From NCBI RefSeq assembly GCF_000297495.1, contig NZ_ALWX01000014.1:1-64000 (forward strand): a DNA stretch of 64,000 bases, written 5' to 3'. The number at the start of each line of letters is the position of its first letter. The stretch's first letter is position 1. The DNA comes from Janibacter hoylei PVAS-1 (GTDB lineage Bacteria > Actinomycetota > Actinomycetes > Actinomycetales > Dermatophilaceae). Position numbers and translations under genes: made by a program. Below the pieces are notes generated by a model. The model ran no database searches, had not been told where the DNA came from, and was given only the letters and a program-made list of their open reading frames with translations. Of this stretch, positions 3,949 to 36,953 are shown piece after piece.

Positions 3949-3954
3949 GCGACC

Positions 3955-4004
3955 CACACTAGGGGTGTGTTGCGATTTTCGCAACTGTGTGTCAGAGTCC
4001 ACAC
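3955..4004. promoter_or_regulatory. Inverted-repeat cluster between XRE-ImmA and drmD
   Basis: Three perfect inverted repeats lie side by side: CACAC-N5-GTGTG (3955-3969), TTGCGA-TTT-TCGCAA (3970-3984) and GTGTG-N8-CACAC (3987-4004). They sit 7 bases upstream of the XRE-ImmA start and ~60 bases before drmD. This is the expected place for an XRE operator controlling both directions. Binding by the adjacent regulator is inferred, not shown. Confidence 0.6.
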
Positions 4005-4066
4005 CAGAAAGCCCAAGTGGCGTTGGCTCGGCCAGCGTCCTCCTTCCCGTGAATTCGAGGTCACCG

Positions 4067-7294: not shown

Positions 7295-10200
7295 TGGCTG
7301 GTCGCGTCTCATCCAGACGGCGTGCGCCCAAGGCCTCGGAACAGCATCGCGCGTGGCTGAGTCTCGTCGACGCCGAAGGTCCCTTCCTTTCGGTCCCTGC
7401 TCTCACCCGCCTGTGGCCCCAGGGGATGCCGACGCTGACGGAGCACCAGCGGGCCACCCTCACCGACACCAAGCCGGCGCTGGACGCAGCGTGGGATGCC
7501 TGGCGCATCGACCCAGACGGCGATCTCGGGCGCTACCGCGAGGTCCGGGACCGCTGGGTCCACACCGTGCTCAATGAGGTCGTCGGCTGGGATCAGGTGG
7601 ACTCAGGATCGACACCGGCCGCGGCGACCGTGTCGTCCCCCGACCAGTCGGTGACCGTCTCCCCCACGACGACGTTGGGAGATGCGGAGGCACTCGTGTG
7701 GGTCGTCGACCCGGTGCTCTCGCTCCGCGATCACCTGGACGACGGGTGGGCCACCTCACCGATCGACCGCATGGAGATCATGCTCCGCGCGAGCCGAGTG
7801 CCGATCGGGATCGTCTCCGATGGCCGGTGGTGGGCGCTCGTCAGCGCTGCCGAAGGGGGTCTTGCCGCCTCAGGCATCGTCGATGCCTTAACGTGGATCG
7901 AGGAAACCACCGTCCGTGATGCCTTCCTCCACCTCGTCGACCCGCTCCGTCTGATCGGCGGCGCCGAGGCTGACCGTCTGCCAGCACTCTTCGTCGAGTC
8001 CGTCGCCGCAGCAGAGGAGATCACCACCTCACTCGGTGTGCAGGTCAGGCGTGCCGTCGAGCTCGTGATCTCGGACTTCTCGAGGGCTGGGGCGACCGCC
8101 CGCGCCCTCGGCGACCCAGATCCCCTGCCCGACGACGGGGCCGAGATCTACGAGGCCGCCGTCACGGTCATGATGCGAGTCGTCTTCCTGCTCTTCGCCG
8201 AGGAGCGTGGGCTCCTGCCAGAGGGATCCCTCTACTCCGCCGGCTACGGGCTGGCCACGCAGTTGGATCATCTCGATGACCGAGCGCGCCACGAAGGTGA
8301 GGAGGCCCTCGACGGGACCCACCAGACGTGGCACCGTTTGCTCGCGACCTCGACTGCGTTGCACAGGGGCTCGACCTTCGAGGACATGCGCCTGCCCGCG
8401 TACGGAGGTTCGCTGTTTGACCCGGAACGTTTCACCTTCCTGACGACGACCACCTCGAGTGGCGGCCTCTCGGTGATGGTCAGTGATCGCGTCATGCGAG
8501 CTGTCCTCGACGCCGTCCAGGTCGCTCGCTTGTCCGGTCAGGACGCACGCCGGATCTCCTTCCGCGACATCGATGTCGAGCAGATCGGCTACATCTACGA
8601 AGGCCTGCTCGGCTACACCTGCACGCGCGCCACCTCTCTGACCGTCGGCCTGATCGGCAAGGAAGGTTCCGAGCCCGAGGTGCCAGTCTCCGTCCTGGAC
8701 GATCTCGCTGAGCGGCACGGCGCATCCAGCGACCCCGACGGAGAGCTCGCCGCGGCGATCATCGCCTGGGCCAAGACACATCAGCCTGCCAGCACCCTGC
8801 AGTCGAAGGCAGCCCTGAAGAAGGCGCTCGCGTCGTCTGACTCCATGGAAGGAGTCGAGCAGGCACTGCGCGCGGTGGCTCCTCATGACGAGCAGGTCCG
8901 CGAGGCATTGCGCCCGTGGATCGGCGCGATCCGACGTGATCTGCGGGGTCGCCCCGTCGTGGCGCATCCCGGCGACCTCCTCGTCGTCGAGACCCCCTCG
9001 CGCAGCAATGCCGGCGCTCACTACACGCCTCGCGATCTCGCCGAATCGGTGGTCCAGCACGCTCTCGATCCGCTGTGCTACCGCCCCGGGCCACACCAGA
9101 CCAATGACCGGGACCAGTGGCAGATCCTCCCACCCGAGGACCTGCTCGACCTGCGCATCGCCGACATCGCCTGCGGCTCTGGAGCCTTCCTCGTGGCAGC
9201 TGCCCGGTACCTCGGTGCACGACTCGTCGAGTCGTGGCAACGCCACGAGCAGTCCGTCCACGGATCGGCTGAAGACGTGCGCATCCAGGCGGTCCGCCTC
9301 GTCGTGGCGAACTGCCTCTACGGAGCCGACATCAATGCGATGGCCGTCGAGATGTGCAAGCTCTCCCTGTGGCTCGTCTCTCTGGACCGCCACGAGCCCT
9401 TCTCCTTCGTCGACGACAAGATCATCGTCGGAAACTCCCTGCTCGGCCTGACGAACCTGCGCCAGCTGGAGGAGCTGCACATCGAGCCGCACTCACGGCA
9501 GGATGCCGGGCGGTGGAGCCTGACCGACGACAACGAGCTCGACCTCAGCCTCGACATCGACGAGCACCTCTCTCAGGCACTCCGCCTCCGCTCTGCCTTG
9601 CGCGGGGTCATCGCGGAGGGCGACGCCCAGCGCGATGGTCGGGCGAAGCGCCGCCAGCTCGCCCGTTTCCGCGGCGAGGTGGCGCCTCTCAAGCGCGTCG
9701 CCGACGCTGTGATCGCCACGGGCCTGCGCCTCGGCGGCAAGCGCGGCCGGGCGCTGGACGAGGCGTACGCCGACCTCCGGGCCGTCGTCCGCTCCGACGA
9801 CGGCAGCGACAACAGCCTCCTCGCGCGTCGGGTGGAAGCCGGTCTCACGCCAGCCGTGCAGACCGACTACGAGCGGTGGCAGCCGCTCCACTGGCCGCTC
9901 GAAGTCCCCGACGTCATGGAGCGCGGCGGCTTCGACGCCATCATCGGCAACCCGCCCTTCCTCGGAGGGAAAAAACTCTCCCCCGCGTTGGGTTCCAACC
10001 TTCGCGAGTGGCTGGTGAATATCTTGGCACAGGGGCAGAAGGGCAACGCAGACCTCGTCGCGTACTTCTTCCTGCGGGCTGTTACGCTACTCAGCCCCAA
10101 CGGGGTTATCGGACTCATCGCGACCAACACGCTTGCTCAAGGTGACACCCGGGAAGTTGGTCTCGACCGCTTGGTCTCCGATGGCTTCACCATCATCCGC

Positions 10201-11313
10201 GCAGTCCGGTCGCGGTCTTGGCCGGCAAAGAGCGCCAATCTCGAATATGCCGCTGTTTGGGGTACCACGGCCACGGTCGCTAACGCCATCACGCGCGTCT
10301 GCGATGACGAGCCTGTGCGAGCGGTCTCCACCCTGCTTGAGCCCGAGGGGCGAGTCTCCGGTCATCCCTCGCGGTTGAAGGAGAACGAGGACACTGCGTT
10401 TATCGGCTGCTACGCCTTGGGAAAGGGATTCGTCCTCCAGCCCGAGGTTGCGCTTGCTTGGATCGACGCAGACCCGGCTAATGCCGATGTGCTCTTCCCA
10501 TACCTCAACGGCGAAGACCTGAACTCCCGCCCCGACGGCTCACCTTCCAGGTGGGTCATCGACATGGGAGAACGAAGCCAAGAGGAAGCTGAACGCTATG
10601 CCATCCCTTGGCAGCACCTAGACGCCGCCGTGAAGCCCGAACGGATTGCCAAAGACGGCAACAAGTACCCCCGCATGGTCCACGAGTGGTGGAAATTCTG
10701 GAATCCGAGGCCCGCCATGCGGAAGGCCCTCGCAGACGTGCACGAATGCCTCGCCATCGCGCGAGTCAGCAAGACCGTAATGCCTGTCAGGGTGCCAATC
10801 TCAGGGGTGCCCAGCGAACAACTGGTGGTTTTCGCCACGGACAGTTTCGTTGACCAGGCGGTACTCTCGTCCTCCGTTAACCAGCTCTGGGCCGTCACTC
10901 ATGCCTCGACACTCGGAACTGGGGTCAGGTACACCCCGTCCGACGTGTTCGAGACCTTCCCGCGCCCATCTAACTACGCCAGGCTGGGAGTCGTCGGACG
11001 TCGCCTTGACGAGGACCGACGCGAGATCATGCTGCGTCGAGAGCTCGGGCTCACCGCGCTCTACAACCTCGTCAACGACCCCGACCTTGCCTCCGACAGC
11101 GATGCTGATGTCGCCCGGGTGCGGGAGATCCACGTCGACCTCGACCACGCGGTGATGGCGGCGTACGGCTGGGACGACGTGCCGCTCGACCACGGGTTCC
11201 ACACGTACCGCCAGATGACGCGGTGGACGGTCTCTCCCGCCGCACGAGTTGCGATCCTCGACCGCCTGCTCGAAGAAAACCATCGCCGCGCAGCGGAGGA
11301 AGGCACTCGATGA
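7294..11313 (+). CDS. drmMI: DISARM adenine-N6 DNA methyltransferase DrmMI
   Basis: The protein is large, ~1339 residues. An N-terminal ~600 residues without clear motifs is followed by an Eco57I-type N6-adenine methyltransferase core: SAM motif I IADIACGSGAFLV (~622), GADINAMAVEMCKLSLWL, and catalytic motif IV GNPPFLGGKK (~885, NPPF). The rest resembles the target-recognition part of type IIG enzymes, but no nuclease motif is apparent. In class 1 DISARM this enzyme marks host DNA as self. The ATG at 7294 is preceded by GAGGAGG 8 bases upstream and shares bases with the drmD stop; a GTG at 7291 is also possible. The gene ends in a 4-base overlap with drmA. Confidence 0.9.
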   Translation: MAGRVSSRRRAPKASEQHRAWLSLVDAEGPFLSVPALTRLWPQGMPTLTEHQRATLTDTKPALDAAWDAWRIDPDGDLGRYREVRDRWVHTVLNEVVGWDQVDSGSTPAAATVSSPDQSVTVSPTTTLGDAEALVWVVDPVLSLRDHLDDGWATSPIDRMEIMLRASRVPIGIVSDGRWWALVSAAEGGLAASGIVDALTWIEETTVRDAFLHLVDPLRLIGGAEADRLPALFVESVAAAEEITTSLGVQVRRAVELVISDFSRAGATARALGDPDPLPDDGAEIYEAAVTVMMRVVFLLFAEERGLLPEGSLYSAGYGLATQLDHLDDRARHEGEEALDGTHQTWHRLLATSTALHRGSTFEDMRLPAYGGSLFDPERFTFLTTTTSSGGLSVMVSDRVMRAVLDAVQVARLSGQDARRISFRDIDVEQIGYIYEGLLGYTCTRATSLTVGLIGKEGSEPEVPVSVLDDLAERHGASSDPDGELAAAIIAWAKTHQPASTLQSKAALKKALASSDSMEGVEQALRAVAPHDEQVREALRPWIGAIRRDLRGRPVVAHPGDLLVVETPSRSNAGAHYTPRDLAESVVQHALDPLCYRPGPHQTNDRDQWQILPPEDLLDLRIADIACGSGAFLVAAARYLGARLVESWQRHEQSVHGSAEDVRIQAVRLVVANCLYGADINAMAVEMCKLSLWLVSLDRHEPFSFVDDKIIVGNSLLGLTNLRQLEELHIEPHSRQDAGRWSLTDDNELDLSLDIDEHLSQALRLRSALRGVIAEGDAQRDGRAKRRQLARFRGEVAPLKRVADAVIATGLRLGGKRGRALDEAYADLRAVVRSDDGSDNSLLARRVEAGLTPAVQTDYERWQPLHWPLEVPDVMERGGFDAIIGNPPFLGGKKLSPALGSNLREWLVNILAQGQKGNADLVAYFFLRAVTLLSPNGVIGLIATNTLAQGDTREVGLDRLVSDGFTIIRAVRSRSWPAKSANLEYAAVWGTTATVANAITRVCDDEPVRAVSTLLEPEGRVSGHPSRLKENEDTAFIGCYALGKGFVLQPEVALAWIDADPANADVLFPYLNGEDLNSRPDGSPSRWVIDMGERSQEEAERYAIPWQHLDAAVKPERIAKDGNKYPRMVHEWWKFWNPRPAMRKALADVHECLAIARVSKTVMPVRVPISGVPSEQLVVFATDSFVDQAVLSSSVNQLWAVTHASTLGTGVRYTPSDVFETFPRPSNYARLGVVGRRLDEDRREIMLRRELGLTALYNLVNDPDLASDSDADVARVREIHVDLDHAVMAAYGWDDVPLDHGFHTYRQMTRWTVSPAARVAILDRLLEENHRRAAEEGTR

Positions 11314-14300
11314 GCACGACGCCCGGCCCTGCCAATCGCCTCGATTCGCCGACGCCACCCATGGACCCGGACGGCTCCTCGTGGACCGCACGGGAGTCCC
11401 TGACCCGAGTCCTCCATCGCGAGCTCGTAGGACCGGCCGGCGGTCCTGACGAGCTCCTCCCGATCAAGCCGGACGGACGCTACCTCGTCGGGCGCATCGC
11501 CCCCGTACGGCTCACGGCCGGACAGGGTGCGGCTCCGAGCACGGACGGCGCCACGGACCAGAACTCCCAAGATGACGACACCATCGAACTGGGCGACGAG
11601 CATGACGCGCGTGACGTCCGCGGGCTCCCGGTCACCAATGTCGACGACTCGGCCATCGACTCCGACGAGGACACCGGCGCCGAGGACACCCCGATCCGTC
11701 GAGGGTTGACGATCCCCGCCTCCATGGGACTCCGGTTCCAGGTCGCCGCTGCCTGCCCGGCCGTCACCGTGACGGCCACGTGGGGTACCTACTCAGCCGA
11801 AAAGGTCGCCGTCGAGACGAACCCCAAGAACGGCGCGCCTCCCGAGCCGACGCAGGAACGCCGTCACTACCGGCGCACGCATCACCAGCACGCGGTCCCC
11901 CTTCGCCTGGCGGACATGACCTCGGGGCAGACGCACACACTGACCATCGAGGAGTCAGTGACCCTCCGGGTCGACATCACCGATGACACCGAGCTGGGCC
12001 GACGCATCGTCGAGGTGGCCCTCTGCAACGACCTCGAGACGCCGCCGACGATCCCCGTCCATGCCTGGCTCTACCAGACCCACCTTGCTGTCGAGGCCGA
12101 CGGTGACGCGACTTTCCTCCCAGTCCGTGATGTCCTCACCGACACTCGACCCGACCCTGATCCCGAGGTGCAACGACTTCGGCTGCAGTACCGGGACCGG
12201 CTCGAGTTCGCCATCGGCCGGACCTGCTCGGCGACCTGGACGACTCCCGAGGGCGATGACGACCAACGCGCAGCGGTCCGAGTGGAGACGACATGGCTTC
12301 CCCAGGCCGAGACTCCACAGGTCACGGCGCAGAGCATCGACGACGCACTCCTCGACATGCGACAGCTCGCGGAGGCAACCCCCGGGGCCCTGGAGGCCGG
12401 GCTGCGTCCCATTGCTGATGGTTATGCCGCGTGGCTGGGCGAGCAGCAGGATCTCGCCGGCACCCTTCCGGACCATTTGCGGTCGACGGCGGACGAGGCC
12501 ATCGAGGAGGCCTGGGCAGTGCACACCCAACTCGTCGACGGCATCGACTTCCTCGTCGAGGACGATGAGGCACGACGCTGCTTCTCCTTCATGAACTCCG
12601 TCATGGCCGAGCAACGAGTCCGCAGCCAGATCGCGCAGGGACGGACCGGCGACGCGCCCGCCGACCTGGACACCATCACCCGGGCCGTGGACGCCAGGGA
12701 GGAGAGCGCCCACTCATGGCGCGCCTTCCAGCTCGCCTTCGTCCTCATGCAACTCCGGTCCCTCAGCGAGCCCACCTCACCGAGACGCTCCGGTCCCATC
12801 CCGAGCGTGGAGCTCCTCTTCTTCCCCACCGGTGGCGGCAAGACCGAGGCTTACCTCGGCCTCGCCGCCTACACCTTCGCGGTGCGGCGCCGGCAGGGAG
12901 TCGTCGAGTCCACTGACGGACCACTCGACGGCACCGAGGGCGTCGCGGTCCTCATGAGGTACACCCTCCGGCTGCTCACCGCGCAGCAGTTCCAGCGGGC
13001 GACCACCCTCGTCTGCGCAGCCGAAGTCGCACGCCGTGCCGACACCGCGACGTGGGGCCAGACCCCCTTCCGGATCGGCCTCTGGGTCGGAACTGATGTC
13101 ACGCCCAAGCGCATCAGCGAGGCCGCGGCGACGGTCTCCGACGCCCAGTCCGGCAGGACGAAGCGCCTGCCCGTCCTGCAGTTCAAGCGGTGCCCGTGGT
13201 GCGGTCACTCGATCGCCCCCGCCAACGTCAAGGTGGATGAGGACGCCGGGCGGGTCTTCGTCCGCTGCGGTGACAAGTTCGGCCGCTGCCCCTTCTCCGA
13301 GGGCGGATCCGTCGACGAGGGACTGCCTGTCCTGACCGTCGACGAGGAGATCTACCGACTGGCGCCTGCCTTCGTCATCGCCACGGTCGACAAGTTCGCG
13401 CGACTAGCCCGAGAGGGGGAGGCCGCGGCCCTCTTCGGCTACGTCAGCCAGCGGTGCGAGCTGCACGGTTTCGTCCACCCCGACTCGCAGTCGTGCACGA
13501 TCAAGCTCAACAACAAGCACCAGCAAGCCAAGGGCGGTGGCCGGCGGCTGCCACACGGCCGGCTCCGCCCACCAGACCTGATCATCCAGGACGAGCTGCA
13601 CCTCATCACCGGCGCCCTCGGCACAACCGTCGGCCTCTTCGAGGTTGTCATCGACACCCTCTCGACGTGGCGCAACGCCGCCGGCCATGCGATCAAGCCG
13701 CTGATCGTTGCGTCGTCGGCGACAGTGCGCAACGCTCCGGAGCAGGTCCGTAGCCTTTACGGGCGAGCCGTGACCTTCTTCCCACCACAGGTCATCGACG
13801 CGTCAGAGACCTTCTTCTCCACCGAGATCAAGCCCACGCAAGACTCCCCTGGTCGCAGGTATCTCGGCGTCTCGACGACCGGCGTGCGGTTCACCGTCGC
13901 CGAGATCCGCCTTGTCGAGACCCTGCTGGCGACCGGCCAGCTCCTCTTCGACGCGGAACCCGAGACCGCCGATCCTTACATGACGCTGGTCGGTTACTTC
14001 AGCGCCACACGCGAGCTGGCGGGACTTGCGAGGTACATCCAGGACGACGTGCAGACCGCGCTGGCCAAGGGCCGCCCGGGAGTGGATCTCCCGCGGAGGT
14101 TCGGCTCCGCCTTCGGTCTGCACACGGCGGAACTGACGGCTCGCGTCTCGGGGGCCGACATCACCGGCACCCTCGACCAGATGGGTCTGCAGTTCGACCC
14201 TGCCTACGACACCAGCCAGGCACTCGCCACTCGGATCGAGGACTCGCGTGCCGGCAAGGAGGTGGCGCGTCGGCGGATCCATCCCTACGACGTAGTGCTG

Positions 14301-15068
14301 GCCACTTCGATGTTGCAGGTCGGGGTCGACGTGCAGCGCCTTGGCCTGATGCTCGTCGTCGGTCAGCCCAAGAACACCGCCGAGTACATCCAGGCCTCTT
14401 CACGTGTGGGACGTGCCGCCGACCGGCCGGGTCTCGTCGTCACTCTTGGGAACTGGTCCCGCCCCCGCGACCTCGCGCACTTCGAGCAGTTCCGGCACTA
14501 CCACGAGACCTTCTACGCCCAGGTCGAGGCGCTCTCCGTCACTCCCTTCTCCGTCACGGCGATGGAGCGCGGGCTCGACGGAGTCCTCGTCAGCGCCGCC
14601 CGTGTCCTCGACGCGGGCCGGAGCGCCCATGCGACGTCGCTGTCCCCGGAAGCGGGTGCGGCCCGAGTCGCCGACCGTCGTCCAGCTCTGGAGGCCCTCA
14701 TCGACTCGATGACGGAGCGAGTCACCGCAGCATCGGACGAGACCTCGGCCCAATGGGCCCGCAGCCGTCTGGTCAACCGACTGGACACTTGGGAGCAGCG
14801 GCGCACCACGCTGCGTGATCGGTCGCTCTCCCTCACCTACGAAAAAGTCAGAGACACCTCGACCCACGCGCCCTTGCTGCGGAGTGCGGAGAACGTGACA
14901 TCGCGGGACGCGTTGGCCGGTGAGGCACCCTTCGTCGTCGCCAACTCGATGCGTGAGGTCCAGCCCGAGATCAATCTCCTCGTCAGCCCGATCAAGGAAC
15001 GGCTCTACTACGTGGCCCCGCCCGGCGCACCGGTCTGGGCAGCCCAAGGGAAGGACCGGAACCCATGA
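11310..15068 (+). CDS. drmA: DISARM helicase DrmA
   Basis: This is a superfamily 2 helicase of ~1252 residues. Walker A is FFPTGGGKTEAYLG (~508), a Cys4 zinc ribbon lies at ~628-655 (CPWCGHS...CGDKFGRCPF), the DExH-type motif is IIQDELHLITG (~760), motif III is SSATVRN (~802), and motifs V/VI are LQVGVDVQRLG and QASSRVGRA (~1030). DrmA and DrmB form the core complex of DISARM, which acts on incoming DNA. The ATG at 11310 overlaps the drmMI stop as ATGA and follows GGAGGAAGG. The 500 residues before Walker A include an acidic, low-complexity part (~50-110). Confidence 0.92.
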   Translation: MSTTPGPANRLDSPTPPMDPDGSSWTARESLTRVLHRELVGPAGGPDELLPIKPDGRYLVGRIAPVRLTAGQGAAPSTDGATDQNSQDDDTIELGDEHDARDVRGLPVTNVDDSAIDSDEDTGAEDTPIRRGLTIPASMGLRFQVAAACPAVTVTATWGTYSAEKVAVETNPKNGAPPEPTQERRHYRRTHHQHAVPLRLADMTSGQTHTLTIEESVTLRVDITDDTELGRRIVEVALCNDLETPPTIPVHAWLYQTHLAVEADGDATFLPVRDVLTDTRPDPDPEVQRLRLQYRDRLEFAIGRTCSATWTTPEGDDDQRAAVRVETTWLPQAETPQVTAQSIDDALLDMRQLAEATPGALEAGLRPIADGYAAWLGEQQDLAGTLPDHLRSTADEAIEEAWAVHTQLVDGIDFLVEDDEARRCFSFMNSVMAEQRVRSQIAQGRTGDAPADLDTITRAVDAREESAHSWRAFQLAFVLMQLRSLSEPTSPRRSGPIPSVELLFFPTGGGKTEAYLGLAAYTFAVRRRQGVVESTDGPLDGTEGVAVLMRYTLRLLTAQQFQRATTLVCAAEVARRADTATWGQTPFRIGLWVGTDVTPKRISEAAATVSDAQSGRTKRLPVLQFKRCPWCGHSIAPANVKVDEDAGRVFVRCGDKFGRCPFSEGGSVDEGLPVLTVDEEIYRLAPAFVIATVDKFARLAREGEAAALFGYVSQRCELHGFVHPDSQSCTIKLNNKHQQAKGGGRRLPHGRLRPPDLIIQDELHLITGALGTTVGLFEVVIDTLSTWRNAAGHAIKPLIVASSATVRNAPEQVRSLYGRAVTFFPPQVIDASETFFSTEIKPTQDSPGRRYLGVSTTGVRFTVAEIRLVETLLATGQLLFDAEPETADPYMTLVGYFSATRELAGLARYIQDDVQTALAKGRPGVDLPRRFGSAFGLHTAELTARVSGADITGTLDQMGLQFDPAYDTSQALATRIEDSRAGKEVARRRIHPYDVVLATSMLQVGVDVQRLGLMLVVGQPKNTAEYIQASSRVGRAADRPGLVVTLGNWSRPRDLAHFEQFRHYHETFYAQVEALSVTPFSVTAMERGLDGVLVSAARVLDAGRSAHATSLSPEAGAARVADRRPALEALIDSMTERVTAASDETSAQWARSRLVNRLDTWEQRRTTLRDRSLSLTYEKVRDTSTHAPLLRSAENVTSRDALAGEAPFVVANSMREVQPEINLLVSPIKERLYYVAPPGAPVWAAQGKDRNP

Positions 15069-17122
15069 CCGACTTCATCCACGATGCCGGACGGGCCCCC
15101 GATGCCTTGGGCGATGCCGCGGCACAGCAGGAGGACGGGACCAAGAAGAACTACGCCCGGGTCGGCAGTCAGCGCCCTTCGGCGCTGCTCTACACCTACG
15201 GTCCCGGATCGATCATCGACCTCCCCCACTTCACTGTGATGCCCTGTGGTTATGACGAGTGGGAGCCGGTGTACGCGCGCCGCGACGGCTCGCGGCCGAT
15301 CCACGCCCCGCGACTCCTCCAGACGGTCCGCACGATGCTCGGCAACCAGATCGGTGAGCTGCGGGGCTTTCCCTGGTCGCCGAAGGAGATCGCCTCCTCG
15401 AAGGAGGGCGTTGACCTCGGTGTGCAGAGCATTGTCTTCCCTCAGTGGATGCGCTGTACGGGGTGCGACCGATTAGCGCCGCTGTCTGTCTGGGAGTATG
15501 CCAACGAGCGAGCCCGACGACCTGATCTGGCACAGTTCACGCACGCTGGGTGTCCCGGCCGAACCCGACGGGGACAGCGCCAGAGCACCTTGGCGGCGAA
15601 GGGGCGCAAGCTGAAGAACCAGCCGGTGGTCACCGCGCGGTACCTCTTGGCGTGCGAGAACGGGCACCTCGACGAGTTCCCTTACGAGTGGTGGGTTCAC
15701 GAGGGCGGGTCATGCGGCAAGCCCGACGTGGAGGTGCCCATCCTGGCCATGCGCGAGCTCACGTCGGGGCGTGGCGCCAACGCGATCATCGAATGCCGCT
15801 CGTGCGGAGCTAGCAGATCCATGACCTTGGCGCTGGGCGAGGCCGGTCGTGAGCGGCTGCCTCGCTGTCGTGGTCGCCATCCTCACCTCGACGGGTTCGA
15901 ACCGAAGGGGTGCTCCAAGGAAGCACGTGTGATGCTTGTCGGGGCTTCCAACCTGTGGTTCCCCGCCGTGACCTCGATCATCGTCATGCCGGACTCCACC
16001 ACAGAGGAAACTCTGCAGGAGCTGGCGCTCACAGTGGCTGCCCGTCATGCGGAAGACCTCGAGGAGTTCGGCGACAACGTCAAGATGATGCGACGCATCC
16101 TCCGGGAGAGCATCGACGTGTCGTCCCTCTCCGACGACGAGGTGGCCGAGCTCGTGCAGCTCGCCCTCTCCCCGGCCGAGAGCGAGGATGACCGGCTCGC
16201 ACGGAAGGAACGCTGGGATCCCGTCGAACTTCTCGAGCCGGAGTGGCGCTATCTTCAGGATGACCCGCCGGGCGAACGTCACGAGAACAAGGCAAGCGGT
16301 CTGACGCTCTCTCCGAGGAAGGTCGCCGCCGACATGGCTCCGGGCATCGCGCGGGTCCTGGCGGTCGATCGCCTCCGCAAGGTCAACGCGGTACTCGGGT
16401 TCACGCGGATCGACGAGCTCGACCGCATCAACGATTCGACGTCACGTCTGGTCAGGCTCAACCGCAACGGTCGCCCACGCTGGACCGTGGCGACCGAGGA
16501 TCGCGGCGAGGGGATCTTCATCCAGCTCGACGAGAAGATGGTCTCCGAGTGGGAGGCCCGGGTCGAAGCGAGCGAGCTCTGGGCCCACCATGTCGCCGCC
16601 CACGAGAGGAACTTCCGCAACCGGTACTCGGAGACCTCCGACATCGCCGATCATCACGACCGACTGCAGCCACCGCGGTACTGGCTGGTCCACAGCCTGA
16701 GCCACACCCTCATCCGGCAGATGGCGATGTCGAGTGGCTACGGCGGGGCCAGCATCAGTGAGCGTCTCTATGCGTGGAAGGGAACCGCCGAGCGTGAGCC
16801 AGCCGCGGGGATGATCATCTGCACGACCGCCTCGGACAGCGACGGAACTCTGGGAGGCTTGGTTCGCCTCAGCGAGGAAGCGCGGCTCGCGGCCCTGGTG
16901 CACGACTCCCTTCGGGTGACGTCTCGCTGCTCCTCCGACCCGATCTGCTCATCCCGTACACCCCAGGACCCCGAGGACTTCCTGCACGGGGCAGCCTGCC
17001 ACTGCTGCACCTTCGTCTCGGAGACCTCCTGCGAAAAGGGCAACCGCTTCCTCGACCGGAGATTCCTCCTGTCCTTGCCTGATTCCGACCTCGGCTTCTT
17101 CGGTCGACCTGATGTCTGGTGA
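15065..17122 (+). CDS. drmB: DISARM DUF1998 protein DrmB
   Basis: DrmB (685 residues) is the DUF1998 partner of DrmA. It contains several Cys/His clusters suited to zinc: RCTGCD (~130), ACENGHLDEFPYEWW (~196), CRSCG (~244) and a C-terminal CHCC set (~645) after RCSSDPICSS. The DUF1998 core is seen as HSLSHTLIRQMAMSSGYG (~543). The gene overlaps drmA by ATGA and drmC by 11 bases, so all five drm genes appear cotranscribed. Composition matches the rest of the operon. Confidence 0.92.
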   Translation: MTDFIHDAGRAPDALGDAAAQQEDGTKKNYARVGSQRPSALLYTYGPGSIIDLPHFTVMPCGYDEWEPVYARRDGSRPIHAPRLLQTVRTMLGNQIGELRGFPWSPKEIASSKEGVDLGVQSIVFPQWMRCTGCDRLAPLSVWEYANERARRPDLAQFTHAGCPGRTRRGQRQSTLAAKGRKLKNQPVVTARYLLACENGHLDEFPYEWWVHEGGSCGKPDVEVPILAMRELTSGRGANAIIECRSCGASRSMTLALGEAGRERLPRCRGRHPHLDGFEPKGCSKEARVMLVGASNLWFPAVTSIIVMPDSTTEETLQELALTVAARHAEDLEEFGDNVKMMRRILRESIDVSSLSDDEVAELVQLALSPAESEDDRLARKERWDPVELLEPEWRYLQDDPPGERHENKASGLTLSPRKVAADMAPGIARVLAVDRLRKVNAVLGFTRIDELDRINDSTSRLVRLNRNGRPRWTVATEDRGEGIFIQLDEKMVSEWEARVEASELWAHHVAAHERNFRNRYSETSDIADHHDRLQPPRYWLVHSLSHTLIRQMAMSSGYGGASISERLYAWKGTAEREPAAGMIICTTASDSDGTLGGLVRLSEEARLAALVHDSLRVTSRCSSDPICSSRTPQDPEDFLHGAACHCCTFVSETSCEKGNRFLDRRFLLSLPDSDLGFFGRPDVW

Positions 17123-17848
17123 CGCCGCACGCTTGTCCCTGGCTCGCCAGCTGACCGCGGACGAGGCAGCGAAGCTCGCCGAGCGACTCGGGTCAGGCGC
17201 TTCGGCCTCGCAGGCCCTGCAGATGATCTCTCCCTCTCGGCACCTCGAGGTGGGCAAGCTCCTCACGCAGGCAGGCCTCAAGGAGGACCGCGAGGGACTC
17301 GTCCAAGTCCTCCGAGTCGTGCACGAAGCCCGGAGCCAGTACAGCCCGATCAGCACCATCTGGACCACTCCGAAGGGATTGGCGCAGACGGGCTCGCTGA
17401 CCTCGTCCCTCCACCAGCTGGTAGCGAACGCGCGCGAATCTATTGTGTGTGCCACATTCAACTTCCAACGCTCGTCTGCTCAGTGGGACGCCTTGCGTGA
17501 CGCGGCGGCTCGGCCCGACCTGTCAGTGCGCGTATACGTCGATCGCGATGCCGCGGACCACAAACCCGAATCCTGGAAACCCACCACTCAGCAGATCGCG
17601 GCGAACTCGTGGGCGCCACCGTGCTGAGGTCGCGACCTCTGAAGGGCAAGCAGGTGCGAACTCACGCGAAGTTCTTCGCGATCGACCACCGCACCCTCGT
17701 CATCACCAGCGCGAACTTCTCGAAGAGCGCCGAGTTTCACAACGTCGAACTGGGCCTGCGCATCGACGATCCCGCTCTGACGGCATCCATCGAGAGTCAG
17801 ATGCAGAATCTGGAGCAGTACATATACGAAGTGGTGCGTCGGACCTAG
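17112..17848 (+). CDS. drmC: DISARM phospholipase D-like protein DrmC (one frameshift)
   Basis: The protein has a PLD-like fold with an HxKxxxxD motif (HAKFFAID, ~184-191) and ANFSKSAEFHNVELG after it, ~245 residues in all. As read, the frame ends early at 17627 (SWAPPC, stop). Adding one G at 17600-17601 gives QQIAGELVGATVL and joins the two parts without loss. The cause is either an assembly error or a true loss. DrmC was reported as dispensable for DISARM protection in the Bacillus system, so real decay would be tolerable. It starts inside drmB, with ATG 17112 overlapping its end. Confidence 0.82.
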
Positions 17849-17864
17849 TGCAGCGTGTTGGCCG

Positions 17865-17878: not shown

Positions 17879-17955
17879 ACGCAACCTCGGGTACTGGCGG
17901 CAGAACCTGACGCATTCAGTCCGAGAGCGAGCGTTCCACCCAGCGTGAGAAAAAG

Positions 17956-20478
17956 TCACGGCCCGACGACTGTCCACGCATCGCGGAACTGGGACTGAGC
18001 GCTGATCAGCCACTCGATAGCGTCGTCCCACGACGCGCGGTCGTCGATGGATGTGAAGGTGGAGACCAAGGTGACGCGAGCTGCCTTCCTGCCGTCCATG
18101 GGGTCCCACTCCGGTGACTGGTCCAAGTGGGACTCAACCTCCGCGCGCTTATCGAAGAGCGCCTCGAACCTCTGATGATTCAGCGCGGCGTCCGCGGAAT
18201 TGAAGTAGAGCTGGACCTCCAGGCCGGTCCTCCTCCACACGGTGGATACGGTGACTCCCGAGCTGCCGACCGAGGCATCGATCCATGGTCCGGTCGACGT
18301 GGTGCCGCGCGTCCAGGTCGGATGATCATCGCGCATGCGCTCCAGTGCCAACGACCAGAACTCCCGGTAGACGGCAGGTCTGCCCGATGTCTGTGGCTCA
18401 CCGAGAAACTCCTGCCGCACGTCCCGCAACCGTCGACCATCGGCGATCGACCAGAAGTACCACCCGTTCGTGGCGCTCTGACGCAGATGCCGAGCCGCAC
18501 CCGACGGGGATTCAAAGGCCTTGCCGTCAAGGTGGAGAAGCATGTCATCACCAATGGTCGCCTCGCGGCCGGCGAAGTCCCGGTGCGTCGAGGTCAGGGT
18601 GTCGCCCACCTGGATCAGGCCACCTTCGACGAGATGCTTGAGCTCGACCCAGTCTCCCGCCTTTGTCTGCGGGTCGGCCACCCGGCCCTCGTGGCCCTCC
18701 GGGACCGGCCAGACGCGGAGCAGGACGTCGATCAGCTCGCCGGTCCGATCATCGATCCGTCCCTCGTCCCACGAGACCTGCTGAGCGCTGTCGACGAGTC
18801 GCCCGGTCATCGTGATCGTGTTGTGCCGCAACAACGCCGTCTGCTTGTCCGCCCACGGGCCGTTGGACACCTTCGAGTTCAGGGAAGACGTCAACAGGGT
18901 GAGATTGCCGAGACGGTGAACCCTCTCCTGCCGCTCGAGTTCTTCCTCCGCTGTCTCGACGGGCCACCAGTCCTGCCACTTCTGCGGCAAGATGTGCTCG
19001 ATCGGCAGACCGATCCGCTCCACCTGCGGCTGACGTGTCTCGGCGCGGTAGGCGTCTTCGATGGCCTCGAGGTACATCCTCATGCGGGCTCGTGGGTACC
19101 GCCGGTACACCGCCTCTCGGGAGAGCGCCTGACGGACCTCATCGTCACCCGGCCAGTAGGTGCTCGTCACATCCAGGCGCGAAAGGTGGCCCACGACCCG
19201 GTCCGCCAACTCGTCTGCTGGCGCCGAATCGTGAGCCGCGATGATGTCCGCGACCACGCGACCCAGGGCAGAGGTGGTCATTCGCAGGAACTGCCGCCGC
19301 ACGACCCAGCTCTCTGCCGCAGTCACAACACGGTTGATGACATCTCCCGGGACGTCACGTCCGGGCGCGTGCAGCCAGAGCAAGAGAGGCTTGAGCAGCT
19401 CTAACCCACTCGCCTGCATGCGGTACATGGCCATCTCGACGACGTCCAGCTCGCCCCCCCGGGCGGGCCGCGGCCTCGGTCCACGCTGGTACTGGTCGGC
19501 CTGCTGCTTGATGACCGGCAACAGTTCCGCCATGGTCCGCTCGGGGTGATGCTCGACGTAGGCCTTGAACCGGGTGAACGTCGACTGCGGGCTCACCTCC
19601 TCACCCGTCCGGGACATGAGCCACTGGTTGAGGAAGAGCGAGCTGCGGCTGACCAAGTACCGCCCGACACTGACCTCCTTCGTCCAGAACTTCTTCTCGA
19701 AGGGCCACTCCTGGCGGTAGATCCGCTCGGCATCTCCCCCTTCGGCCTCAACGCGTTGGAAGACGAAGTTGCGCACGAGGTCTGCTGCGGTCAGTGGGGT
19801 GCCACGCGCGTTGAGGATCTCGAAGATTTCCTGAGATTTCTCGGAGGACTCGAGCTCGATCGACACGAGAGTGAGTCCTTCCACGAGGACGTCGGTGATT
19901 TCCTTGGCCCGCGGGCCGAACGCGTCCGAGTCCGGGTCCCCCAGCCACTGCTCGACCGCACCGACGAAGTAGTGGTGGGCTTGGACGACGAGACTCTCCG
20001 AGTTGTCGAGTGACGCGTGGTCGATGGGTGTCTCGGCGGTCATGACCTCGTCGAAGGCCTGCCGGTCGATGTTGAGGTGGCGCAACTTGAGTGGGCTGTC
20101 GCCAGCGAACCGCTGCGGGTTGTGGGTCAACGACTCTAGCCGATCGGCGTGGTCACTGCCGGCCAGAACTGCCTGTGTGGCATCCATGAGCAACTGCAGA
20201 GTCGTGATGCGCTGCTGACCATCGACGACATTCCACGACGGCAGTCGGTTGCCCTGCAGCTGCTGGCTCTGCATGACCACGGCACCGAGGAAATGCTGGG
20301 GACGCAGGTGTGGCTGTGCCAGACGAACGTCGGCCACTCTCTGGATGTCCTGCCACAGTGGCACCCACTGTTCTTCCTCCCGCCAGACGTATGGGCGCTG
20401 GAAGAGCGGGATGACGAAGTGCTGTGGCATGTCGAACAGGTCGAGTGGCGTGCGCTTGTAAGTCTCCACGCTTCGCAT
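17956..20478 (-). CDS. GmrSD-like DUF262/DUF1524 nuclease with RAMA and DUF4268 domains
   Basis: The 840-residue protein has four recognisable parts. DUF262 (~1-240) carries the NTP-binding WNVVDGQQRITT (D86-R90). DUF1524 (~485-560) is an HNH-like nuclease with IEHILPQKW and RLGNLTLLTSSLNSK. A RAMA-type domain (~608-695) shows GDWVELKHLVEGGL and ATNGWYFW. DUF4268 lies at ~740-835. DUF262-DUF1524 proteins (GmrSD, BrxU) cleave modified phage DNA using NTPs. RAMA domains are linked to adenine-methylation systems and may read methylated DNA. The protein may therefore sense modification, a useful complement to the neighbouring adenine methylase. It is transcribed toward drmC and divergent from the SIR2 gene. 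Confidence 0.82.
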   Translation of the reverse strand: MRSVETYKRTPLDLFDMPQHFVIPLFQRPYVWREEEQWVPLWQDIQRVADVRLAQPHLRPQHFLGAVVMQSQQLQGNRLPSWNVVDGQQRITTLQLLMDATQAVLAGSDHADRLESLTHNPQRFAGDSPLKLRHLNIDRQAFDEVMTAETPIDHASLDNSESLVVQAHHYFVGAVEQWLGDPDSDAFGPRAKEITDVLVEGLTLVSIELESSEKSQEIFEILNARGTPLTAADLVRNFVFQRVEAEGGDAERIYRQEWPFEKKFWTKEVSVGRYLVSRSSLFLNQWLMSRTGEEVSPQSTFTRFKAYVEHHPERTMAELLPVIKQQADQYQRGPRPRPARGGELDVVEMAMYRMQASGLELLKPLLLWLHAPGRDVPGDVINRVVTAAESWVVRRQFLRMTTSALGRVVADIIAAHDSAPADELADRVVGHLSRLDVTSTYWPGDDEVRQALSREAVYRRYPRARMRMYLEAIEDAYRAETRQPQVERIGLPIEHILPQKWQDWWPVETAEEELERQERVHRLGNLTLLTSSLNSKVSNGPWADKQTALLRHNTITMTGRLVDSAQQVSWDEGRIDDRTGELIDVLLRVWPVPEGHEGRVADPQTKAGDWVELKHLVEGGLIQVGDTLTSTHRDFAGREATIGDDMLLHLDGKAFESPSGAARHLRQSATNGWYFWSIADGRRLRDVRQEFLGEPQTSGRPAVYREFWSLALERMRDDHPTWTRGTTSTGPWIDASVGSSGVTVSTVWRRTGLEVQLYFNSADAALNHQRFEALFDKRAEVESHLDQSPEWDPMDGRKAARVTLVSTFTSIDDRASWDDAIEWLISAQSQFRDAWTVVGP

Positions 20479-20596: not shown

Positions 20597-22624
20597 ATGA
20601 CACCCGATAGGCCCGAGCGCCTCGCCCGGGACATGCACGCAGGGCAGAGGGACAAGCTCGGCCGCGACTACGTCACGCGGCACCTGCGCCCGGTCGTCGA
20701 CAAGCTCAAGGACAAGGGCGACCACGCGATCATGGGTGGGTGGCTCCACGACATCATCGTCACGGACACCAAGACCACGCTGGCCGAACTGCTCGATCGG
20801 AACTTCCCTCCAGAGGTCGTCCGCGCCGTCGACTCCGTGACCAAACGACCGGGTGAGTTCTACGAGGACCTCATCACGAGAGCCTCCGTCGACGAACTCG
20901 GACGCCAGATCAAACTCGCAGACATCGAGGTCAACACGGAGTCCAACCCGGCGCTGGCGAAGAAGGACCCGGCCAAGGCGAAGCAGCTCCTCGAGAAGTA
21001 CGAGCGGGCACGCCGGCAGCTCGGGCATCATCCGAGCCACCTCTTCGTCGTGCACGGCAGGATCGAGCACCTCACGCACGACGTCGCGATCATCCCCACC
21101 GACGTCGACGTCACCGTTGAGCCTCACTGGGATGCGGCGTCGCCCGAGGCGGATGCAAAGCCGGCTCGTCTCAACGAAGGGTGGGCGCGCTGGGGCGAGT
21201 CGAGCTGCTGGTTCGTCGACGTCGCCTCTGGTGACGTCGACGCAGTCCTGCGCCGGGTGCGTGCCGCGTTGTACGACATCGCCCAGACGCACCCCTGGCG
21301 AGTGCTCACGCCCGGCTCGTTGGAGGCACAGGGCACACCCCAGGGGCGTCGTCCGCTCCCCCTCATCGCCATGCCCGTCCTCGGCATCGGACAGGGCGGT
21401 CGCGGCGATCAGCAGGGCGAGGTGATCGAGCACCTCATCCGCGGCCTCACAGAAACACTGAAGAACCTTCCCTTCGACATCGCTCTGGTCACGCCGGACC
21501 CGGCCGTGTACGCGGCCGCGCAGCATGCCCGTGTTCGCGCTGCGTCAGACCACCCCCTCGCAGGCAAGGCGAAGGACCTGGCGAGCAAGGCACGGGCCGG
21601 AGAGCTGGCCCTATTCCTCGGCGCCGGGGTGAGCATCCCCGCGGGGCTGCCGACCTGGCACGAGCTGATCGTCCAGCTCGGCAAGAGCCTGGACCCCGGT
21701 GACCGAGAAGTCCTCGACGGTCTCGACATCACCGACCGGGCCCAGCTCATCCAGCAGTTGAAGCCGCATGGCTTCCAGCAGAGCGTCGCCGACATCACGA
21801 GTGAGGTCACGCGCCCTTCGCTCGTCCACACGCTGCTCGCAGGTCTCGACGTCGCCAATGTCGTGACGACCAACTACGACGCCCTCTTCGAGTCAGCCAT
21901 GCGCGCCGCTGGTCACGCCGCCGACGTCGTCCTGCCCCACACGTCGGCCATCGGTCAGCGGCGATGGGTGCTCAAGATGCACGGCGACGTGGACCACCCG
22001 GCCACCATCGTCCTCACCCGACGTCACATGGTCCGGTACGACGCGGCGAACCGCCCGAGCGCTGCCCTACTGCAGTCACTCCTGCTCACGAAGCATCTGA
22101 TGGTGGTCGGTGCGTCGATGACCGACCCCAACGTCTTGCGCCTCATCCACGAGGTGGATGCCTATCGAGATGAGCACGGACAGGCTCGTGACGGGGACTA
22201 CGGGACAGTGCTGGACGCGGGTCCGACGAGTCCCGGACAGACTCGGCTGTGGGAGGGCCAGCTCGACTGGGTCGACCTGACACGTCAGGGCATCGGCAGT
22301 GGGCCGAGGACGCTCGAGATCCTGCTCGACCTCGTCGGGGTCTTCGCCTCGCGCGACTCGTCCTGGGTGCTCGACGAGCGCTTCGGGAGCCTCCTCGAGC
22401 CCTCGGACAGAGAGTTCGCCGAGCGTCTCCGACAGATCGCCGTGGACACGCCAAGCGGCGAGACATGGGCACCGCTGCGACGAGTCCTCGACGAGCTCGG
22501 GATAAAGCAGGCGGAGTCGCCCCGCGGCAAGTGTGGCGCTGCTGCACATGTGGGCGACTGCCCGTCGCGCCGTGGTGAGCCCCGTCGGTACGGCCACGGA
22601 GGCGCGACTGGCCGAGGGCAATGA
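20597..22624 (+). CDS. RelA/SpoT-type HD + macro-like + SIR2 fusion protein
   Basis: The protein has 675 residues. Residues 1-140 match the RelA/SpoT (MESH1-like) HD hydrolase: MHAGQRDKLGRDYVTRHL with H29, GGWLHDIIVTDT with H51-D52, and IKLADIEVN with D109, a full Mn-site set. Residues ~149-315 look like a macro-type domain (MPVLGIGQGGRGDQQGEVIEHLIRG). Residues ~325-560 are a defence-type SIR2 domain: LFLGAGVSIPAGLPTWHELI (~340), TTNYDALF (~427) and KMHGDVDHP (~460). SIR2 domains of this class destroy NAD+ in phage-infected cells; MESH1-type HD enzymes remove phosphate from ppGpp or NADPH; macro domains bind or hydrolyse ADP-ribose products. All three point to nucleotide signalling and NAD(P) depletion. 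The exact reaction is unknown. Confidence 0.8.
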   Translation: MTPDRPERLARDMHAGQRDKLGRDYVTRHLRPVVDKLKDKGDHAIMGGWLHDIIVTDTKTTLAELLDRNFPPEVVRAVDSVTKRPGEFYEDLITRASVDELGRQIKLADIEVNTESNPALAKKDPAKAKQLLEKYERARRQLGHHPSHLFVVHGRIEHLTHDVAIIPTDVDVTVEPHWDAASPEADAKPARLNEGWARWGESSCWFVDVASGDVDAVLRRVRAALYDIAQTHPWRVLTPGSLEAQGTPQGRRPLPLIAMPVLGIGQGGRGDQQGEVIEHLIRGLTETLKNLPFDIALVTPDPAVYAAAQHARVRAASDHPLAGKAKDLASKARAGELALFLGAGVSIPAGLPTWHELIVQLGKSLDPGDREVLDGLDITDRAQLIQQLKPHGFQQSVADITSEVTRPSLVHTLLAGLDVANVVTTNYDALFESAMRAAGHAADVVLPHTSAIGQRRWVLKMHGDVDHPATIVLTRRHMVRYDAANRPSAALLQSLLLTKHLMVVGASMTDPNVLRLIHEVDAYRDEHGQARDGDYGTVLDAGPTSPGQTRLWEGQLDWVDLTRQGIGSGPRTLEILLDLVGVFASRDSSWVLDERFGSLLEPSDREFAERLRQIAVDTPSGETWAPLRRVLDELGIKQAESPRGKCGAAAHVGDCPSRRGEPRRYGHGGATGRGQ

Positions 22625-34527: not shown

Positions 34528-36089
34528 CCCCCTGCGCGTAGCTCTCCAGCGCCGCCCGGAATCCCCGGTTGGGCGACGCCTCCGGCAGCGCGGCGACGAC
34601 CTCCCGCGTCGCCGTCTCGAGGTCGACCCCGAGTTCCAGCGCGTGGGCGATGCCCACGGTGGGCGTGCGGGACTGGGCCGCGACGCAGTGGATGAGCACC
34701 CGGTGGCCTTCGGCCCGAAGGGAGGCCACCGTGCGGGCCGCGTCGGTGAGGACGGCGTCGAGGTTGGGGTTGGCCTCAGGCCCCTGGCTCGTCGATGAGG
34801 CGGAAGGGCACGTGCACCATGCCCGCCGGCACCTGCCGTGAGCCGGTGAGGCAGAGACTGACCACCGCGGTGATCTCCTCGGGCAGCTCGTCGAGGGCCA
34901 GCACGTTGCCGAGCCAGACGCCGTCGTCGAAGGGGTGCCGCACGAGGACCGAGCGGCGGGCCTGGTGGTAGTCGATGCGCTCCACCCCGGGCCAGCCGTA
35001 GGCATTGGGGCGGCCACCCCGCACGGCCAGGGTGGCCGCCTCGGCGAGGTCCTCCGCAGTGCGCCCCGGGTAGCCGTGCACGATCCGACGCCACTCGGCC
35101 GGGACCGCGGACGCACCCCACCGAGCGGCGAGCAGGCCGCCGGCGATCGCCGCGACCGTGTCGGTGTCGTTGCCGATGCGGATCGCGGTGTCGAGCGTGT
35201 GCTGGAGGTGCCGGCAGGGCATCTCGTCGGGCACCGGCGTGTGGCGGATCGCCGACCACGCAGCCTGGAACGCGGTGACGACATAACCGTTGGGCGTGAA
35301 GGTCGCCGGCTCCTGTGCCTCGGCCTCGGTGATGCGGGCGGTCCAGAAGCCCTGCGCTTCGTCGGACAGGTACGGCAGCCCGACCTGTACGTCGAGCTCC
35401 CCCTCGAGCACCGCGTGCCGGATCGCGTGCGACCACAGCGCGCACGCCTGCCCCGCGCGCTCGTCCGTGTGGGTCAGCGCCGAGACCGCCTCAGCGGCCG
35501 CCGTGAGGCGCTGCGGGTCGTCGAGGTGCGCCAGCGCGACCGGTGAAGTGCGCATCAGCGAGCCGTTGCCGCCGGTGCGGCCAGTCCGAGCGTGCAGGTC
35601 CGCGGCGGCCTGGGCCATGCGGGTGGCGAGGGGCTCGTCCGGTCCCTGAGGAGGCGCGCCAGCGCCGTCTCGAAGGGACTCCCTTCGAGACGCTTGCAGA
35701 GCAAGCTCCTCAGGGAGCGAGGTCTGACGGGGCGATGCGTGACGGGGCGAGGTGTGGCGGAGCGAGGAGAGGACCTGGCGGGTCTGGGTGCCGATGTCGG
35801 CCGGGCTGGAGGCGTACCAGTCGAGGAAACCCTGGGCGACCTCGTCCAGCGCTTCCGGGGAGGCGAGGTCCACCCCCTTCGCCGCGGCTGCGAGGACCGG
35901 CCAGGTCATGGCCGTGTCGTCGGTCCACTCGCCCGGGGCGAAGTTGCCGAGGCCGCCGCCGATCATGGCGGGACCGTCGGGTCCGACTGCGGCGCAACCG
36001 AACTCGTAGCCGGCGCCAAGGGCATCGCCCACCGCGGAGCAGAGAGGGGCACCGCAGGCGCGGTCCATCTGTGCACTGGTGAGTCGCAT
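34511..36089 (-). CDS. ADP-ribosylglycohydrolase fused to dual-specificity phosphatase (one frameshift)
   Basis: The N-terminal ~345 residues are an ARH/DraG-type hydrolase: GDALGAGYEFG, the Mg-binding EWTDDTAM (T56-T59) and IGNDTDTVAAIAGG (~310). These remove ADP-ribose from proteins or DNA. The C-terminal ~170 residues are a dual-specificity phosphatase with HCVAAQSRT (CX5R, ~470). The frame breaks at a C4 run (34781-34784): dropping one base turns the early stop into DEPGPEANPNLDAV and gives ~525 residues. An in-frame palindromic repeat (35639-35717) encodes a foreign stretch at residues ~120-150. The start overlaps the stop of the upstream gene, so they are cotranscribed next to the NrtR-like regulator. 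Confidence 0.82.
35639..35717. repeat. Double palindromic repeat inside the ARH gene
   Basis: Unit 1 (35639-35677) is identical over 39 bases, inverted, to 57164-57202. Unit 2 (35681-35717) is an inverted relative of unit 1 that shares the outer parts (CCCTTCGAGACG and CTCCTCAGGGA) and differs in the middle. Together they form a long hairpin-like element of REP type. It sits in frame within coding sequence. Confidence 0.7.
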
Positions 36090-36880: not shown

Positions 36881-36892
36881 CACATCCCCTCC

Positions 36893-36953
36893 CATTCATT
36901 TAACCCCTTGAATGAGCTAACTATAACACCTCAACCGCGCTAAAGTGCACGAC
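36893..36953. promoter_or_regulatory. Divergent control region of the ARH operon and nrtR-like gene
   Basis: The region is AT-rich against a GC-rich background. CATTCA-N10-TGAATG (36893-36914) is a perfect inverted repeat. TAAAGT (36941-36946) ends 7 bases before ATG 36954, giving a leaderless start for the regulator, and actata (36921-36926) reads TATAGT toward the other operon. Control by the NrtR-like protein itself is likely but unproven. Confidence 0.5.

Follow-up and report, generated by a model that had tools for sequence, protein, structure and literature searches.

We analysed a 64,000-nucleotide stretch of the Janibacter hoylei PVAS-1 genome (contig NZ_ALWX01000014.1, positions 1 to 64,000; here called the window), and in it a gene that joins an HD domain, a macrodomain and a SIR2 domain in one chain and may encode a phage-defense effector. 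The open reading frame (ORF) is intact, with an ATG at 20597, a stop at 22624, and an in-frame GTG one codon 5′ of the ATG. Its parts are as follows.

20597..22624, + strand: HD-macro-SIR2 gene, 675 amino acids (aa); full-length model with a predicted local distance difference test score (pLDDT) of 88.4 and a predicted template modeling score (pTM) of 0.86
20597..21025, + strand: HD domain of the RelA/SpoT homolog (RSH) or small alarmone hydrolase (SAH) type, residues 1-143; match to 7smg at E 4e-15, structural match Z 21.8
20747..20767, + strand: degenerate HDxxED site, residues 51-57 (HDIIVTD); lacks the Glu and is one residue longer
21032..21547, + strand: macrodomain, residues 146-317; family model pLDDT 84.8, Z 15.1 to 5fud
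21560..22360, + strand: SIR2 (SIR2_2) NADase-type domain, residues 322-588; PF13289, Z 24.7 to BcThsA, N426 and H462 present
22361..22507, + strand: C-terminal helical segment, residues 589-637; common to the macro-SIR2 relatives (alignments A1 and A3), helices in the model
22523..22621, + strand: disordered tail, residues 643-675; pLDDT <50, unaligned with relatives (alignment A1), codon pattern not coding-like

Each of the three domains is backed by a predicted model, and the whole-chain scores above come from AlphaFold2 run on alignments of relatives. Searches with the single sequence found the SIR2 part directly, gave a weak RelA/SpoT match, and returned no Pfam or PDB match for the middle region. 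GC content by codon position looks coding over all three domains (third-position GC, GC3, 0.82-0.88) and not over the last ∼35 residues. An initial annotation, made from the letters of the DNA, had proposed these three folds in this order and had named profile searches and structure prediction of each part as the check; both the HD and the macro folds were recovered, and the order holds.

The SIR2 part matches PF13289 (SIR2_2) at E 1.2e-21 (77.7 bits) and ThsA models at E 1.4e-31, and the structures nearest to its model are BcThsA (8bto, Z 24.7), KomC and DSR2. The GAGVS, TNYD and HGD motifs, which had been read as marks of a defense-type SIR2, are all present, and these matches bear that reading out. 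Seven residues (G344, S346, N426, D428, H462, G505 and D510) are invariant in all 31 aligned rows, the window included. Among them are the catalytic Asn and His expected of a SIR2_2 fold, N426 and H462, which align with the Asn and His of 9v0g (the KomBC complex) and of 8wc0 (ThsA). Papers are cited here by PMC identifier for the passages that bear on each point; in ThsA, the N112A and H152A substitutions both abolish NAD+ cleavage (PMC7272460). We infer that the domain is an NADase. SIR2 domains can, however, be ADP-ribosyltransferases, and macrodomains can bind protein-linked ADP-ribose (PMC11204291). The two domains could instead form a modification pair akin to SirTM-macro operons, in which SIR2 adds ADP-ribose, the macrodomain reads or removes it, and no suicide effector is involved; ADP-ribosylglycohydrolase (ARG) genes, which remove ADP-ribose, lie nearby. 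We consider this improbable, given that the domain belongs to SIR2_2 and that its nearest structures are NADase effectors. The canonical Pfam SIR2 family was not reached (13.2 bits vs a cut-off of 24), and no SirTM model was searched.

The middle region was modeled on a family alignment, and the model is closest to the macrodomain 5fud (Z 15.1, root-mean-square deviation [rmsd] 2.4 over 150 residues), with YmdB at Z 15.0; Foldseek matches at E ≤0.001 were mostly macrodomains. It thus has the alpha/beta fold of a macrodomain. Alignment A2 (31 rows) holds H148, F150, W178, G263, D294 and R312 invariant, and the PVLGIGQGG segment, which we take to be the glycine-rich diphosphate loop of macrodomains, is present, with G263 in all rows and G267 and G268 in 28 of 31 each. 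At residue 155 the window has Arg where 11 of 31 rows have Asp, a position assigned by motif only and one that we take to be the acidic, adenine-contacting site of macrodomains.

The HD domain has kept its fold and lost part of its active site. In phmmer, the (p)ppApp hydrolase of PDB 7smg matches residues 8-144 (E 4e-15), and the model of residues 1-144 superposes on it over 138 residues (Z 21.8, rmsd 1.6); it also fits the Pseudomonas aeruginosa SAH (Z 17.6) and MESH1 (Z 16.8), as expected of an all-helical RSH fold. Every residue that is invariant in the 26-row HD alignment A4 is kept in the window: the metal ligands H29, H51, D52 and D109, together with G16, D19, G22, Y25, K106, N113 and Y135. 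The metal-site half of the MESH1/SpoT-type site proposed in the initial annotation therefore stands, but the ED half of HDxxED, which it did not mention, is broken. Residue 53 is an insertion relative to all 25 aligned relatives, position 56 is T where all 25 have E, and D57 of the ED pair is kept, as it is in 24 of the 25. With L143-L147 and L163 added to the aligned set, 31 of 31 relatives carry the HDxxED Glu, which is absent from the window HD. In fold and metal ligands, then, the domain resembles small alarmone hydrolases and MESH1 (7smg, 6yvc, 3nr1), from which it differs in lacking this Glu and in being fused to macro-SIR2.

By motif spacing, we equate the missing Glu with E65 of MESH1. 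The MESH1-E65A variant is called catalytically inactive (PMC13221220), and the missing HDxxED of Escherichia coli RelA is cited as the reason that it does not hydrolyze ppGpp (PMC8801413). The dead hydrolase domain of RelA acts as a switch (PMC8012599); like the window HD it is an RSH HD without HDxxED inside a larger protein, although it governs a ppGpp synthetase and not an NADase. The window HD is probably a pseudo-hydrolase. Clearance of ppGpp or NADPH, which had been suggested for it, is unsupported and unlikely, since the Glu is lost and the motif is out of register, and an active SAH-type hydrolase was rejected on the same loss. By analogy with RelA, a binding or allosteric role is more likely. 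An altered activity may be conceivable, as D57 and the metal ligands remain.

In a rival reading, the domain is a phosphatase still active on the 2′-phosphate of NADP(H), or on the 3′-phosphate of alarmones, 3′-phosphoadenosine 5′-phosphosulfate (PAPS) or coenzyme A (CoA), that feeds or tunes the SIR2 NADase. The retained H29, H51, D52, D57, D109 and N113 and the close fold (Z 21.8) would suit such an enzyme. One bacterial SAH has both alarmones and NADPH as substrates (PMC9765508), and MESH1 acts on CoA (PMC13221220), but in one study none of Mesh1, MESH1 and a bacterial SAH hydrolyzed NADPH under the conditions used (PMC7644958). Alarmone-type HDs are also counted as phosphatases of ARG systems (PMC9503650). 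An HD match lies just 5′ of an ARG gene, in the same orientation, in 3 of the 33 genomes chosen for an SAH-type HD: G181 (overlapping), G060 (∼70 bases away) and G238 (∼470 bases). However, the window HD groups apart from these three, its HDxxED is both missing the Glu found in all 31 relatives and lengthened by one residue, and RelA offers a precedent for loss of hydrolysis with this motif (PMC8801413). We regard an active phosphatase as quite unlikely.

The HD tree also speaks to where the domain came from. The window falls with eight rows (L112, L058, L059 and L143-L147; support 87/92, not starred), and the HDs of G181, G060 and G238 sit in a separate starred group of seven; an origin from HDs upstream of ARG was rejected because the groups differ. 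The closest standalone HD of the same family, in genome G843 (locus L112), is ∼51% identical to the window HD. There, at 9268-18681, the standalone SAH-type HD adjoins genes for a type II methyltransferase, a TmtA-like protein and a GajB-like protein, with DrmB ∼12 kb off. Given the grouping and these defense-type neighbors, the HD was more likely acquired inside defense islands than from an ARG operon.

How widespread is this architecture? We searched for relatives in five overlapping surveys (297, 396, 186, 394 and 396 genomes, which through overlap are not 1,669 distinct genomes), four of which had a listing threshold of E 1e-20 or 1e-25. Macro-SIR2 relatives were found in 47 genomes besides the window's own. 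The best, in G150, G982 and G1165, are 47-48% identical. The HD domain was covered by a match in 0 of the 47: the earliest match starts at residue 120 (G703, where blastp places the start at 146), and 8 of the 47 match only from residue 242-318 onward. The conserved unit is macro-SIR2 and, as far as seen, the HD fusion is known from this genome alone, because no match in any relative covers the HD. The three-domain fusion is thus unsupported as a recurrent system. A cross-phylum scan returned two macro-SIR2 genes (Isoptericola and Cellulosimicrobium) and 38 loci that match the SIR2 part only (L004-L041); local profile searches of these 38 found neither a macrodomain nor an HD domain. We call the macro-SIR2 family actinobacterial on the basis that G186 corresponds to the Isoptericola record of L002. 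Two pattern hits and no relatives came from a scan of viral contigs. Phage and plasmid records matched in 42 and 534 cases, respectively, none spanning 80% of the query; the best 15 of the 42 phage matches are to the HD part.

A single instance among so many relatives could be an accidental or decaying fusion, in which the HD is a relic of a neighboring gene and only macro-SIR2 works, or in which the whole protein is becoming a pseudogene. The degenerate HD site, the unshared C-terminal tail that does not look coding, and an adjacent drmC gene split over two frames all fit such a history. Set against them are HD codons that look coding (GC3 0.875), the remaining invariant HD residues, intact SIR2 residues, and a confident model (pLDDT ∼92 over the HD, pTM 0.86). 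We therefore hold decay to be unlikely, though it is the rival that we take most seriously.

The loci of the relatives hold some further irregularities, among gene calls that come from a simple ORF caller and are in some cases in the wrong frame. In L092 (8916-10492), the macro-SIR2 relative from G063 is in two ORFs, either a broken copy or an assembly error. In L087 (8386-11025), the relative is called as 879 aa, with ∼200 extra N-terminal and ∼140 extra C-terminal residues, which may reflect either a further fusion or a long open frame. A gene that we label DUF6308-like, as an assumption of ours, lies directly 5′ of macro-SIR2 in L002 (7211-7885) and L003 (7399-8064), with weaker tblastn matches elsewhere in L089 and L106. 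Gene lists for 36 loci (the window among them) and the upstream genes of 18 loci showed no conserved partner gene upstream of macro-SIR2. A helicase cluster that seemed to recur near the relatives was not borne out, as tblastn with its longest member gave matches at that member's own locus and at L105 only.

The closeness of the SIR2 domain to ThsA raises the question of Thoeris. ThsA (SIR2-SLOG) likewise holds a SIR2 NADase and a domain of a kind that binds ADP-ribose-type nucleotides in one chain, but the window protein has a macrodomain on the N-terminal side in place of a C-terminal SLOG, an extra HD, and no TIR match nearby. Neither architecture of ThsA, SIR2 followed by SLOG or transmembrane (TM)-macro, is found here, where macro precedes SIR2, although no separate prediction of transmembrane helices was made. 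After the SIR2 domain the model has only ∼50 ordered residues, which is too few for a SLOG domain. Genomic context was examined in 42 genomes, namely the window's and 41 of the 47 with relatives (G186, G369, G346, G304, G1244 and G1246 left out), with distances counted only for matches on a shared contig and counts uncorrected for kinship. Across these, three TIR families (PF13676, PF08937 and PF01582) gave no match ≤70 kb from macro-SIR2 on the same contig, the nearest being 77.6 kb away. TIR_2 occurs in 11 of the 42, ThsB_TIR in 3 and TIR in 4, together 12 genomes, and the other 30 have none. No TIR (ThsB) gene of the kind that stands beside a Thoeris effector was found near macro-SIR2 on a shared contig in these 42 genomes. 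With a different architecture and no TIR match nearby, membership in Thoeris was rejected, a ThsB_TIR match on another contig (C42) notwithstanding.

A looser connection would make the protein a Thoeris variant, a ThsA whose SLOG sensor has been swapped for a macrodomain and which answers a TIR-made messenger. It would explain why ThsA is the closest SIR2 structure, and it has a precedent in macro-type ThsA effectors, whose nucleotide ligands can be produced by ThsB TIR proteins (PMC11204291). In the TM-macro ThsA, too, the macrodomain is the candidate nucleotide sensor of a defense effector, but there it accompanies transmembrane helices and is paired with a TIR ThsB; here it accompanies SIR2, with no TIR nearby. 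The C42 match could in principle act at a distance. The 30 genomes without any of the three TIR families and the 77.6 kb to the nearest same-contig match make this variant very improbable.

Gene lists around the relatives first pointed to ARG-like and NrtR-like genes. With the window's own genes as tblastn queries, ARG was found within ∼9 kb in 15 of 46 relative loci, an NrtR-like gene in 9 (all 9 with ARG), and a TY-Chap-like gene in 4, while the HD was found in one of the 46 (loci of ∼9-19 kb), as a separate gene in L090. Whole-genome searches with PF03747 (ARG) gave matches in 28 of the 42 genomes, and in 15 of them ARG lies ≤10 kb from macro-SIR2 (13 ≤5 kb), where uniform placement would predict 0.28. 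The homologue survey proposed with the initial annotation thus turned up recurrent neighbors, these ARG genes, and in 0 of 47 relatives the same three-domain order. In L148, the trio of ARG, TY-Chap and NrtR abuts macro-SIR2. Locus L090 (5452-9945) holds the parts of the window as separate genes in the order NrtR, HD, ARG and macro-SIR2 (convergent), with the stop of the HD gene overlapping the likely GTG start of ARG. The window carries the same trio ∼12 kb from the HD-macro-SIR2 gene, between 34776 and 37643; its own ARG, at 12.5 kb, is outside the 15 genomes counted above.

34776..36089, - strand: ADP-ribosylglycohydrolase (ARG), distal cassette; PF03747 E 1.9e-45
36089..36895, - strand: TY-Chap1-type peptide chaperone of the ARG cassette; PF22551 6.5e-18
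36945..37643, + strand: NrtR-like regulator of the ARG cassette; PF21906 (NrtR_WHD) 1e-13, with a tblastn match to the NUDIX/NrtR gene of L090

Such cassettes were described by Iyer et al. in 2022 and predicted to counter viral ADP-ribosylation (PMC9503650). Their parts include Nudix or WYL regulators, TY-Chap chaperones, and phosphatases, the alarmone-type HD among them (PMC9503650). The window and the relatives resemble these ARG-centric cassettes in having ARG, TY-Chap and NrtR-like genes, in the window or beside macro-SIR2; alarmone-type HDs count among the parts of such cassettes. They differ in that a SIR2 protein is the recurrent neighbor and, for the window, in the 12 kb that separate gene and cassette. 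The survey sought ARGs without coupled sirtuins (PMC9503650), and so a SIR2 effector beside ARG falls outside its stated set. The selection rule of no coupled ADP-ribosyltransferase or sirtuin does not hold for the 15 of 42 genomes with macro-SIR2 near ARG.

The gene itself lies in a defense island, directly downstream of a DISARM system, whose genes are named here following PADLOC, and of a GmrSD-type nuclease gene.

3623..7294, + strand: DISARM drmD; PADLOC DrmD E 0
7291..11313, + strand: DISARM drmMI; PADLOC DrmMI E 0
11223..15068, + strand: DISARM drmA; PADLOC DrmA 3.3e-288
15065..17122, + strand: DISARM drmB; NF038324 2.3e-195
17112..17848, + strand: DISARM drmC in two frames (17112-17627 and 17609-17848); PADLOC DrmC profile positions 6-163 and 167-240 of 241
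17956..20478, - strand: GmrSD-type nuclease with RAMA and DUF4268; PF03235, PF07510, PF18755 and PF14088

These matches agree with the neighbors named in the initial annotation, DISARM and a GmrSD-like nuclease; that annotation had missed the recurrent ARG link and the cassette at 34.8-37.6 kb. The split of drmC reflects either a genuine frameshift or a fault in the assembly. An integrase core domain (rve) matches below the Pfam cut-off at 12-881 of the window. GC content is ∼0.65 up to 24 kb and ∼0.72 beyond, a likely island edge; given this shift, the HD-macro-SIR2 gene seems to be part of an acquired island that ends before the ARG cassette.

Putting these observations together, we lean, with modest confidence, toward a suicide-type NADase effector of the actinobacterial macro-SIR2 family, in which an ADP-ribose-type ligand on the macrodomain activates SIR2 and the HD is a pseudo-hydrolase add-on. 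The ligand would rise during infection, for example as ADP-ribose freed by ARG from host molecules after their ADP-ribosylation by a phage. Its binding to the macrodomain would switch on SIR2, by analogy with the SLOG domain of ThsA. SIR2 would then destroy NAD+, and the infection would abort. Since ADP-ribose is itself a product of NAD+ hydrolysis, the signal could be self-amplifying. An SAH-type HD, as far as seen only in this genome, would have joined the N terminus and then lost its catalytic Glu, to serve as a non-hydrolyzing nucleotide-binding or allosteric module like the pseudo-hydrolase domain of E. coli RelA.

Several points weigh against this account, and the first concern the protein and its genome. 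The HD-macro-SIR2 fusion is a single case, from a draft assembly of 122 contigs. Binding of ADP-ribose by the window's macrodomain is not assured, since Arg155 replaces the Asp seen in 11 of 31 rows. The ThsB_TIR match in the window's genome (C42:14605-14871, in an open frame of 134 aa) is weak, at E 4.3e-7, but above the cut-off. Other points concern the ARG linkage. No ARG match lies ≤10 kb from macro-SIR2 in 27 of the 42 genomes, and ARG is no commoner with macro-SIR2 (28 of 42) than with the SAH-type HD (23 of 33), so that it is the position of ARG, not its presence, that is unusual in macro-SIR2 genomes. DrmB, matched in 8 of the 42 genomes (7 over the cut-off), is also nearer than uniform placement predicts (≤10 kb in 2 genomes, ≤25 kb in 4). 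Macro-SIR2 and ARG genes may share a preference for certain hotspots, and the counts include related genomes, which are not independent of one another. Clustering in defense islands may explain part of the ARG result, though neither TIR_2 nor DrmB comes close to ARG in strength of linkage. Finally, the window's cassette is 12.5 kb off and past the GC shift near 24 kb, and thus need not work with the HD-macro-SIR2 gene.

A more elaborate possibility, which we think rather unlikely, is that the protein integrates three signals: the dead HD pocket would read an alarmone, NADP(H) or a 3′-phosphonucleotide, the macrodomain would read ADP-ribose products, its own included, and both would gate a self-amplifying SIR2 NADase. 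If this is true, the protein would be the prototype of an effector tied to host repair of phage ADP-ribosylation, in which ARG clears the mark and NAD+ is destroyed if ADP-ribose is still rising.

The initial annotation knew of no described system with the HD-macro-SIR2 order, and our searches of those parts of the open-access literature that they reached turned up none, nor any description of macro-SIR2 beside ARG; no paper was returned for “macro-SIR2” or similar phrases. One figure legend states that some SIR2_2 proteins also have a Macro domain (PMC12700824). Altogether, the macro-SIR2 gene looks like an effector of the SIR2 NADase type in which both the sensor and the genomic partner are different, plus a one-off HD. 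If the suicide-effector interpretation is right, macro-SIR2 links NAD+ depletion to the ARG cassettes of actinobacteria, which are predicted to act against ADP-ribosylation, and the so far hypothetical ARG systems would gain a testable killing arm. It would also mean that a macrodomain can gate a SIR2 NADase without a neighboring TIR partner, and that, in the HD fusion, a pseudo-hydrolase has been reused as a regulator in phage defense.

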